A DNA stretch of 64,000 nucleotides from Candidatus Halobonum tyrrellensis G22 (GTDB lineage Archaea > Halobacteriota > Halobacteria > Halobacteriales > Haloferacaceae), in NCBI RefSeq assembly GCF_000495475.1, contig NZ_ASGZ01000013.1:62001-126000 (forward strand). The letters run 5' to 3'. Below, in pieces: positions 53,518 through 57,154 of the stretch (position 1 is the stretch's first letter; every line of letters begins with the position of its first letter). The translations under genes and the position numbers were made by a program. Under the pieces are notes generated by a model. It worked only from the letters and a program-made list of their open reading frames with translations, had not been told where the DNA came from and did not search any database.

Positions 53518-55344
53518 TCAGAGCCGGCGGAGCGACGACCCGCCGCGGGGGGACGTTCTGCCGCGGGCGGACGGCTCGTCGCGGACCGGCGAGACGCCCC
53601 GGGCGGGCGCGACGCCGCGGTCGGCCGCCGCACCCTCGGCCGTCCCGGTCGGGAGGGTCACGTCGAGCGTGTACTCGCCGGACCCGACCGTCGTCGTGGC
53701 GGCGTCGACCAGTTCCTGCTCGTCGGCGGTGTCGAACGAGAACTCCCCGCCGGGCAGCGTGTACGACACCAGCGACAACTGGAGTTCACACCCCTCCGCG
53801 ACGGTGAACGCCACCGACGCCGTCCCGTCGCTCACCGCGATGGGGTCGGACGAGACACAGTCGCGTATCTCCGAGGGGAGCGAGTTGATCCACGTGTCGC
53901 GTGTGGTGACGCCGTCGGCGTCGCCGTTGACGTACTGGATCAGCCGCTCCTGCCGGCCGTAGAAGTCGTCGTCGCTCTCGCCGAGCGTCTCGTTCGGCTC
54001 ACCGACCACGAAGTCGACCTGGTAGGGGACGACAGTCTCGCCGCCCTCGCCGGGAACCTCGTCGATGGGGAACTCCTCGCCGCTCAGCGGGATGTCGAAG
54101 TAGCTCTCGGCGTCGACCGACGAGAGCTGGGGGTCGTCGGCGAGCGCCTCGAACGTCTCGAGGAAGCCGACGCGCGACGCCTCGACCTTCTGGCCGTACG
54201 CGCGCGACCCGACGGAGCTCGACTGGCCGGATATCTCGTACAGCATCCCGGCGGCGTTCGTCCGCGGGCAGAGCGCGTCGAGGTACGACCCCCACAGCGT
54301 CGCGTAGCCGTAGCGGGTGACGGTGTCGAAGTCGTCCCACGGGTCGGTGACCTCCGCCAGGCGGTCGTGGACGAGGCGGTTGAGCCGCAGCGAGCGCTCG
54401 CTCGTCTCGCGGTCGATGAACGGGTTGACCGCGTCCGCGACCGGTCCCTCGCCGTCGTAGAACGGCGCCTGGTCGAGATACGACGGTCCGAACGCCGCCA
54501 TGACGCTCATGATCGACGGCTCGGGCGGCTCCGACCCCGGGTCGGTCGGGATGCCCTGGTGGTGGTGCGTGATGGCGTAGTCGGGGTCGGCGCGCAGGAA
54601 CGAGCGGGTCACCGCGCGCACCTCGGGCGTGAGCCGGAGCCCGCTCGCCGACAGCGTGTGCCCCTCGTAGGGCATGTCGAGCTGCCACGACGTCTCGCCG
54701 TCGCCCTCCGAGCCGCTCCACCAGTCGGCGGGGAGGAACCCGTCGTCGTCGCGGAACCGGTCGAGGTCGGACCGGAGGTTGAAGTCGCGATTCATGTCGT
54801 AGCCGCTCGGTTGGCCCTCGGAGCCGTAGTGGTAGTACGGCTCGTGCCGCGAGTCCCCTCGCTCCCACGGCTGGGTGTTCTGACGCCTGGTGAGTCGTTC
54901 GAGGTCGTCGTCGCCGTCGAGGTCCTCGCCGTACATCGCCCCGTCCGGGTTCATGCGGGGGACGATCGTGATGCTCAGTTCGTCGAGGACGTCCTCGTAG
55001 CGGTCCGGTTCGGCGGTCATCTGCCGGAGGGCGACGAGGATGCCGTCCGTCCCGGCGGGTTCGTCGCCGTGGATCTGCGTGATGAGGTGGACGTTCGTGT
55101 CCCCCTCGCCCAACTGTACCTCCCAGACCGGCGCGCCGAGTCCGGCCGACTCGCCGATCTGACTGACCGTGATCAGGTCGCTCTGGTCCAGCAGGGCCAG
55201 TCGGCGCTCCAACTGCTCGTTGGTCAGGTACGCGTTCGGGTTGACCGGTGCCTCTTCGTCGCTCTCCTGTGCGGTGACCGCCGGGAGACCGGTGGTCGCC
55301 GCGGCCAGGCCCGTCGCCGTCGTGAGGAACTGTCTCCGTCTCAT
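53518..55344 (-). CDS. Tat-secreted M14 zinc carboxypeptidase with extra C-terminal module
   Basis: 608-residue protein. MRRRQFLTTATGLAAATTGL is a twin-arginine signal; no lipobox. The catalytic domain (residues 40-410) has HGDE (H92, E95) as the first zinc ligands, PRMNPDG for substrate carboxylate binding, AITHHHQG for the third ligand (H260-262) and YEISG with the catalytic glutamate (E370). From residue 441 to about 566 a second domain (YQVDFVVGEPNETLGESDDD ... TWINSLPSE) is shared with the divergent vWA protein 55724-57154 but not with ordinary carboxypeptidases. The C-terminal 40 residues are arginine- and glycine-rich. It is probably a secreted protease or amidohydrolase acting on surface proteins. 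Confidence 0.88.
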   Translation of the reverse strand: MRRRQFLTTATGLAAATTGLPAVTAQESDEEAPVNPNAYLTNEQLERRLALLDQSDLITVSQIGESAGLGAPVWEVQLGEGDTNVHLITQIHGDEPAGTDGILVALRQMTAEPDRYEDVLDELSITIVPRMNPDGAMYGEDLDGDDDLERLTRRQNTQPWERGDSRHEPYYHYGSEGQPSGYDMNRDFNLRSDLDRFRDDDGFLPADWWSGSEGDGETSWQLDMPYEGHTLSASGLRLTPEVRAVTRSFLRADPDYAITHHHQGIPTDPGSEPPEPSIMSVMAAFGPSYLDQAPFYDGEGPVADAVNPFIDRETSERSLRLNRLVHDRLAEVTDPWDDFDTVTRYGYATLWGSYLDALCPRTNAAGMLYEISGQSSSVGSRAYGQKVEASRVGFLETFEALADDPQLSSVDAESYFDIPLSGEEFPIDEVPGEGGETVVPYQVDFVVGEPNETLGESDDDFYGRQERLIQYVNGDADGVTTRDTWINSLPSEIRDCVSSDPIAVSDGTASVAFTVAEGCELQLSLVSYTLPGGEFSFDTADEQELVDAATTTVGSGEYTLDVTLPTGTAEGAAADRGVAPARGVSPVRDEPSARGRTSPRGGSSLRRL

Positions 55345-55723
55345 GTGGTACTCGTCGACACGGTCGGTGTCGACGCCGGCTAACCTTCCGCCCTCCCATT
55401 CAATGTACGCCTACCAGCGATCCGCTCCATCCGTCCGGGGATACCCCCCGGTTCCGGGGAAACGCACGCTCGTTCGGGGTGCGCCCGCCGATCGCCGACC
55501 CGTCGGGAGCGACCCGCGTGGGCCGACCCGGCGCCGTCGCCGGTCGACCCGCCGGACGACCGGCCGCTGGAACGGCCACACGACGGGTTACCGAGTTCGG
55601 GTGGTAACTACCCGCATGATTACGGTACTGTTTCGGCCGGGGCGTACCGGCTGTGTATAACTATTACCCAACTGACGAACCCGCCCCTAGGCGTTCGGCC
55701 GACGGTCGGACGTCACCCACACC
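55345..55723. other. Divergent promoter region between M14 peptidase and vWA genes
   Basis: The 379-base region contains no gene. Features seen are the 21-base palindrome at 55354-55374 and an A/T-rich segment TGTGTATAACTATTACCC at 55652-55669 about 60 bases before the vWA ATG, which is a likely promoter. A shared module between the two proteins suggests the region coordinates expression. Confidence 0.6.
55354..55374. promoter_or_regulatory. Palindrome in the leader of the M14 peptidase gene
   Basis: GTCGACAC-GGTCG-GTGTCGAC has perfect eight-base arms and lies 10-30 bases upstream of the peptidase ATG (minus strand, 55344). In a leaderless or short-leader transcript it would coincide with the promoter; it could be an operator or a small RNA hairpin. 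Confidence 0.5.
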
Positions 55724-57154
55724 ATGAGACGACGTGACTACGTGCGACTACTCGGTGGAACAGGAGCGGCGGCGGGACTCGGACTCGCCGGAACCGGCGT
55801 CGGCGCGGCGGCGGAGCCGTGTTACTATCAGGTCGACTTCGTGGCGGGTGAGGTGGAGGAGCAACTCGGCGAGAGCGACGACGACTTCTACGGCGCCCAA
55901 GAGCGGCTGATACAGTACGCGCTCGGCGAGGGGAGTGAGGTGACCCACCGCGACACGTGGATCAACTCGCTCGACACCGAGACGCGGCGGGCGGTCACGT
56001 CCGACCCCATCGCGGTGGAGGGCGGGACGGCATCGGTGTCGTTCACCGTCGCCGACGGCGCGGAGCTCTCACTGTCGCTCGCGGTGTACTCGATGCCGGC
56101 GTCGACGTTCAGCTTCGACACCGCCGACGACCAGGAACTGACCGACTCGGCCACCGGCACGTTCGGTCCCGGCGAGCACACCCTCGAAGTCACGCTCCCG
56201 TGTGAAGACGGCGGCGAGGAGCGCGTCGAGTGTCCGGTCGACCCCGCCGAGGTGACGGAGTCCGACCTGGTCGACCTGTTGAGCGTCGAGTCGTCGTCGT
56301 TCCCGGAGGTGTCGGTGTTCGCGCGCGTGCTGACCGACGCCGGCGACGCGGGCGACCTCCCGGCGGACGCCTTCGAGGTCTGTGAGAGCGGCTACGTCCA
56401 AGACGCCTCGGTGTCGTCGTCGACCACCGGCGGCGGCGGCGCGGCGGACATCGTGTTCGTCCTCGACGACACCGGGAGCATGGGGTCGTTCATCGAGGGC
56501 GTGCTCGACAACATCCGTACGTTCGCGAACGACCTCGACTCCGGCGACATCGACAGCCGCTACGCGCTGATCACGTTCAAGGACGACGTCGAACTCGACC
56601 AGGAGTTCACCGGCGACGTGGCGACCCTCGAAGCCGCTCTCGACGACGTGGTCGCAAGCGGCGGCGGCGACTTCCGCGAGAACGACTTCGAGGCGGTCGA
56701 GCGCGCGACCGAACTCGACTACCGGCCGGGTGCCCAGCGGGTGGTCGTCGACATCACCGACGCGGCAGCGCAGGTCGACGACCCCGACGCGTACTCCAAC
56801 GACGAGAGCGTCACCGACCTCACGATGGCGGACGTCGAGAGTCTGCTCGCGGGGTACACGTACATCGCCGTCTCGCGCGACTTCAGCGAGGAGTACGGCG
56901 ACTTCTACGACGACTACTACGGCGACGGCGACAAGCAGGTGCTCGCCGAGAACGTCGGCGGGACGTGGATCGACCTCGACAGCCCCGACTTCAGCGCGGT
57001 GCTCGAAGAGATCAGCGGTATCCTGACCTCGACGTACACGCTGACGTACACCGCCGCTACCGACGGCGACGCCGAGCGGACGGTGCTGGTGCGCGTCGAG
57101 GACCCCGTCGAGGGAACCCTCTATCGGACGCTCACGTACACGGTGCCGTCGTAA
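55724..57154 (+). CDS. Tat-secreted vWA-domain protein with shared N-terminal module
   Basis: 476-residue protein. MRRRDYVRLLGGTGAAAGLG is a twin-arginine signal. Residues 35-160 (YQVDFVAGEVEEQLGESDDD ... LEVTLPC) are about 60% identical by eye to the C-terminal module of the divergent M14 peptidase, including DDDFYG.QERLIQY and RDTWINSL. A linker with cysteines leads to a von Willebrand factor A domain from residue 242 (ADIVFVLDDTGSMGSF, the metal-site motif) to about 430, and a beta-rich end. vWA domains bind ligands or proteins through a metal. A partnership with the M14 enzyme at the cell surface is likely. Confidence 0.85.
   Translation: MRRRDYVRLLGGTGAAAGLGLAGTGVGAAAEPCYYQVDFVAGEVEEQLGESDDDFYGAQERLIQYALGEGSEVTHRDTWINSLDTETRRAVTSDPIAVEGGTASVSFTVADGAELSLSLAVYSMPASTFSFDTADDQELTDSATGTFGPGEHTLEVTLPCEDGGEERVECPVDPAEVTESDLVDLLSVESSSFPEVSVFARVLTDAGDAGDLPADAFEVCESGYVQDASVSSSTTGGGGAADIVFVLDDTGSMGSFIEGVLDNIRTFANDLDSGDIDSRYALITFKDDVELDQEFTGDVATLEAALDDVVASGGGDFRENDFEAVERATELDYRPGAQRVVVDITDAAAQVDDPDAYSNDESVTDLTMADVESLLAGYTYIAVSRDFSEEYGDFYDDYYGDGDKQVLAENVGGTWIDLDSPDFSAVLEEISGILTSTYTLTYTAATDGDAERTVLVRVEDPVEGTLYRTLTYTVPS

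Follow-up and report, generated by a model that had tools for sequence, protein, structure and literature searches.

An uncatalogued domain of ~127 amino acids occurs in 33 copies in the genome of Candidatus Halobonum tyrrellensis G22. Two of these copies lie in the window (the whole stretch of DNA that was analysed, 64,000 nucleotides), one in an M14 carboxypeptidase-like protein and one in a vWA protein. Structure models indicate that the domain is self-contained and mostly beta, and comparison of the copies indicates that it spreads between genes as a unit, fused to or inserted in exported proteins. Tentatively, its role is explained as noncovalent binding, by which exported proteins that have no other anchor would be kept at the envelope or matrix.

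The module shared by the M14 and vWA proteins

The two host genes are adjacent and divergent, and each encodes one module:

53518..55344, minus strand: host gene 1, 608 aa, with a Tat-type signal, the M14 carboxypeptidase-like domain, the module and a 42-aa basic Pro/Ala-rich tail
54571..55185, minus strand: Peptidase_M14 match (PF00246), residues 54-258, E 4e-15
53647..54024, minus strand: subfamily A module of the M14 protein (residues 441-566), in which the conserved cysteine pair is present (RDCV ... EGCE)
53521..53646, minus strand: basic tail C-terminal to the module in the M14 protein
55724..57154, plus strand: host gene 2, 476 aa, with a Tat-type signal, the module, a linker, the vWA domain and a C-terminal region
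56447..56824, plus strand: vWA match (VWA_4, PF25106), residues 242-367, E 2.6e-11, the best VWA match
55826..56203, plus strand: subfamily A module of the vWA protein (residues 35-160)

In a Pfam scan of both proteins only the M14 and VWA domains were assigned and the shared segment was blank. BLASTP of the M14 segment against the vWA segment gave 86 identical residues out of 125 (69%) without gaps at an E-value of 3e-60. The homology proposed in an earlier sequence-only reading is thereby confirmed, together with its boundaries (441-566 and 35-160) and quoted motifs, while its by-eye estimate of ~60% identity was too low. Both N-termini indeed resemble twin-arginine signals (MRRRQFL... and MRRRDYV...), without a lipobox. 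The vWA domain contains a MIDAS-like motif (DDTGSM). The module of the vWA protein has no internal cysteine pair, and Cys33 and Cys161 are located just beyond its two ends; by eye, a bond between them closing the ends of the module would fit. In a module-less M14 homologue, 77% identical, the corresponding position is occupied by an R-rich tail; judged by eye, the module of the M14 protein may therefore be an insertion ahead of a native tail.

The copies of the genome fall into two subfamilies, A (10 copies; FYGRQ...RDTWINSL) and B (23 copies; LYAEQDRLMRFA...EKDTAWPS). Among 90 haloarchaeal copies Q6, D8, G12, Y26, L32 and Q107 are invariant (numbered on the vWA module segment, in which position 1 is protein residue 31). 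Two cysteines are both kept in 60 of these copies and both lost in 30, and a single one is never found. A disulfide would give this pattern, with the reservation that the sequences share ancestry.

AlphaFold2, with six sequences as input, resulted in two mostly beta models with pLDDT of 79 and 81 and pTM of 0.78 and 0.80, in agreement with the earlier proposal that the segment is a single folded module. Scans of 32 module copies gave no consistent match in Pfam (best E 0.016, in one copy only) or NCBIfam (best E 0.006, in one copy only), and no family of carbohydrate-binding modules in Pfam was matched. A fold search of the PDB with the two models gave nothing at E <= 0.001, the best partial matches being GH3 enzymes with TM-scores of 0.3-0.4 over about 70 columns, and a search of a viral fold library gave no match to the module model at E 0.001. 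The only PDB sequence match, AaBglC (8zvk, E 0.006), consisted of two enzyme repeats scoring 5.5 and 12.1 bits and was treated as chance. No description of the module was found in literature searches. A known domain was thus rejected on sequence and on fold, and the earlier statement that no named domain has this pattern holds for Pfam, NCBIfam and the PDB. That reading had also allowed that the segment might turn out to be a known domain found broadly in unrelated proteins; it is found broadly on unrelated proteins, but it is not known.

Distribution, hosts and spread of the module

With a single sequence as query, the 33 copies were identified in the genome (72 contigs, 3.68 Mb in total), each at E 2e-15 or better and all except one at E < 1e-20, and a profile search recovered the identical 33; the similarity is therefore beyond chance, as had been claimed. 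Each host carries one module. Polysaccharide-active enzymes make up roughly a third of the hosts, and the glycosidases comprise GH10, GH43, GH51-like, GH15 glucodextranase, two GH2, two GH3 and, weakly, a GH28-like protein. Other enzymes are M14, 3-keto-disaccharide hydrolase, PhoD, 5'-nucleotidase, phytase-like and S9/esterase-like proteins, and further hosts are vWA, InhA-MAM, choice-of-anchor I, NosD/beta-helix, FG-GAP and DUF7282 proteins. In 22 of the 33 hosts, including the choice-of-anchor I protein, no further domain follows the module; 5 hosts have it at the N-terminus and at least 2 have it internally.

Only five copies have another copy within 10 kb. Apart from the pair in the window, a single cluster is present, in which beta-helix, GH3 and beta-helix module genes lie inside 9 kb (L032:6426-15534). 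One copy is broken, with its first third absent and an apparently out-of-frame tail following (L019:1806-3191). In an FG-GAP module protein (L025:6957-8918) the later part is an Arg/Pro-rich frame, which suggests a frameshift or sequencing error.

The module was found in 38 of 392 genomes of the order, and the 17 of these carriers that were searched fully contain 1-12 copies each, compared with the 33 of this genome. A Halococcus thailandensis genome contains 5 copies and a Halomicroarcula rubra genome 1. In a phylum sample of 295 only haloarchaea of the same order carry it, in a loose first look that may miss divergent copies. The most frequent host families in Halococcus and Haloarculaceae are DUF7282, beta-helix, CARDB and 5'-nucleotidase proteins, and not glycosidases. 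In a tree, the 32 complete copies of this genome form one A group and one B group, with which only copies of one genome of the same family (G263) intermix, suggesting that most of the expansion is recent. Five of the six copies in G263 (L048, L054, L060, L063 and L068) are B-like, and a stretch of about 36 kb in that genome contains four copies, some adjoining DUF7282-type repeats. A restriction to viruses or plasmids was rejected, as just one IMG/VR contig and one Halococcus plasmid carry the module; on the viral contig (IMGVR_UViG_3300010222_000170, L100:3608-4540) it is joined to a Thr-rich linker in a small secreted-looking protein.

The relation between the two window copies was followed in a tree built from 90 copies. 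There, the M14 copy forms a pair with that of the choice-of-anchor I protein (support 96/91), which is also its nearest copy at 71% identity, and the vWA copy groups with those of the GH10, GH51-like and GH43 proteins (support 94/94), its nearest copy being on the GH10 xylanase at 70% identity. Each is thus closest to modules on other hosts, indicating that the M14 and vWA copies did not arise together. It had been proposed to check whether the module always joins M14 to vWA genes, and this is not the case. M14 homologues in 14 other genomes of the family, with identities of up to 77%, have no module and terminate after the catalytic domain, vWA homologues in 9 other genomes of the family have different N-termini without a module, and in 148 family genomes no M14/vWA pairing was observed near homologues of either host, within loci reaching about 1.5 kb to each side.

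At the DNA level, modules on non-homologous hosts are up to 92% identical (GH2 versus glucodextranase), and for one pair on two different proteins 95%. The similarity between such copies mostly stops a few bases to some tens of bases from the edges of the domain. The nearest DNA-level copies, at 83-92% identity, sit among the polysaccharide-enzyme hosts.

In a GH51-like arabinofuranosidase (L023:6158-9178) the module is located shortly ahead of the GNE acid/base motif. Alignment with the GH51 arabinofuranosidase 3s2c breaks off at query residue 446 (chain residue 144) and continues from about the point where the module ends, indicating that the module lies in a loop of the catalytic barrel. 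Probably it is inside other domains as well, in two hosts of other Haloarculaceae genomes. When the module was removed from L050:112-3366, the Heparinase II/III C profile aligned over 35-172 instead of 35-95 and its E-value improved from 5e-4 to 6e-6, and in L047:1-2982 the module, by eye, lies within a multicopper-oxidase-like region. A split of the CARDB domain in L024, suspected by eye, is not claimed, as excising the module raised the CARDB score slightly, from 43.6 to 45.5 bits.

A related domain with the shared strand motifs TFGPGTH..LP and YxxDxxxG is found in Paenibacillus LPXTG proteins (L118-L123), in which the second half of the module is directly followed by its first half. With a doubled profile, the Paenibacillus scores increased by 8.8 to 15.7 bits in 8 of 8 sequences, and 40 doubled profiles with a shuffled second half gained at most 5.6 bits. 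This gain above the controls supports that the Paenibacillus relative is a circular permutant of the module, which would place the termini of the module adjacent to each other.

Export of the hosts and possible roles of the module

Nearly all hosts with a readable N-terminus have Tat- or Sec-type signals; for L010, L017 and L019 the reading of the N-terminus is uncertain owing to the frame, a contig edge or a break. Neither a lipobox at the signal nor a hydrophobic helix at the C-terminus was seen in any of the 33 host ORFs, and none has a PGF motif in its last 45 residues. Archaeosortase substrates combine a PGF motif with a transmembrane helix and a basic tail at the C-terminus, and the hosts do not fit this pattern; the genome uses PGF-CTERM on other proteins (8 above the cut-off). 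Among Tat-like ORFs in 1.26 Mb, covering every module locus and about a third of the remaining genome, a lipobox was present in 0 of 21 module hosts versus 27 of 54 others (Fisher p 1e-5), the classifier being a crude pattern with false positives among the non-module ORFs. When the other Tat-like ORFs were curated by eye, with the outcome known beforehand, about 26 had a lipobox and 5 did not (p 7e-10). For haloarchaeal Tat substrates in general, 46-65% have a lipobox and roughly half are lipoproteins (PMC2945643).

One module on many exported proteins that lack other anchors, and at any position in them, points to a binding partner in the envelope or matrix that all of them have in common. 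Retention at the cell is therefore the preferred explanation, though it falls somewhat short of being probable; the common binding or surface-targeting role put forward in the sequence-only reading is likewise still the best guess. The module would bind the same ligand noncovalently in every host, and the most likely candidate is a glycan or glycoprotein belonging to the envelope or matrix of the cell itself. Enzymes and receptors exported by Tat and Sec and cleaved by signal peptidase I would then be held near the cell instead of being lost, and the carboxypeptidase and vWA protein of the window would share a surface with the other 31 hosts without forming a dedicated pair. The 33 copies on hosts of many activities, without lipobox, PGF motif or C-terminal hydrophobic helix, point to this reading. 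Ligand-binding tips are typically near the N-terminus of LPXTG-anchored proteins, which is where the Paenibacillus relatives are found. Against retention, hosts without a lipobox are equally expected if they are simply released enzymes, and no fold match was found between the module and known binding domains. In at least one Haloarculaceae host (L043), which has a hydrophobic C-terminal segment after the module, and in the wall-anchored hosts of Paenibacillus, the module is not the sole anchor.

The main rival is a carbohydrate-binding module that ties the secreted enzymes to the plant or microbial polysaccharides they digest, which is possible but rather unlikely. Like such modules the domain is small, beta-rich and present on secreted glycosidases; the polysaccharide-active third of the hosts fits substrate binding, the closest DNA-level copies are on such hosts, and the weak match to AaBglC has a CBM6-like strand pattern by eye. 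However, that match is within the chance range, none of the Pfam families of such modules was matched, and the hosts reach far beyond polysaccharide enzymes to PhoD, 5'-nucleotidase, M14, vWA, choice-of-anchor I, FG-GAP and phytase-like proteins. As the most frequent hosts in other haloarchaea are not glycosidases, one substrate polysaccharide is unlikely. Improbable, too, is a structural or stability insert without a ligand that was spread by recombination and tolerated through its adjacent ends. The position inside GH51, and probably inside other domains, and the adjacent termini deduced from the permutant would agree with it, but hosts with a readable N-terminus look exported, and the invariance of the polar or aromatic residues Q6, D8, Y26 and Q107 suggests a function. 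A docking module, by which many secreted proteins are joined on a scaffold or pair with themselves (dockerin-cohesin-like or homotypic), would account for a single module on many activities, and a dockerin-type domain has been reported on a secreted haloarchaeal lyase (PMC13260240); since each host has a single copy, and neither a partner domain nor a protein with several copies was found in the genome, we regard it as a poor candidate. The two-part M14/vWA system of the sequence-only reading, to which the adjacent, divergent and module-bearing genes had pointed, is very improbable, because the module is neither confined to the pair, with 33 different hosts, nor conserved with it, and the window copies are not sisters.

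Comparison with known systems and meaning

SLH, CWB2, GW and LysM are bacterial noncovalent wall-binding modules that are promiscuous, N- or C-terminal and usually repeated. The module resembles them in being an accessory domain that occurs promiscuously on exported proteins with a variety of functions, but it is single in each protein and has no sequence match to them. N-terminal or internal placement is possible for noncovalent binding domains. The C-terminal domain of the T9SS in Bacteroidetes (RgpB CTD; PMC4804311) is likewise a beta-sandwich on many unrelated secreted proteins and linked to surface attachment. It is always the C-terminal domain, however, whereas the module is also N-terminal and internal. 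The archaeon has no outer membrane, and neither a sequence match nor a confident fold match to the T9SS domain was observed. The lipobox and the PGF-CTERM/archaeosortase system (PMC2945643, PMC7157517) share the proposed purpose of keeping Tat- or Sec-exported proteins at the cell, but they are short motifs leading to lipid anchoring, and the module hosts are without both. The related domain of Paenibacillus differs in its permuted order and in being near the N-terminus of a sortase-anchored protein.

A more far-reaching proposal is that the module represents a third haloarchaeal route of surface retention beside lipobox and archaeosortase. It would be a mobile, disulfide-stabilised binding domain, copied between genes as DNA, even into a catalytic barrel, and marking much of the species' non-lipoprotein Tat secretome. 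This is doubtful at present.

With 33 copies in a single archaeal genome, this uncatalogued domain links more than thirty proteins that otherwise have nothing in common. If the module is a retention or glycan-binding device, it would explain how digestive enzymes stay near the haloarchaeal cell without a lipid anchor, and it could readily be used as a tag for high-salt surface display. It would also be a clear example of a domain that moves from gene to gene and into a loop within another domain, with a permuted bacterial cousin fixing the position of its ends.
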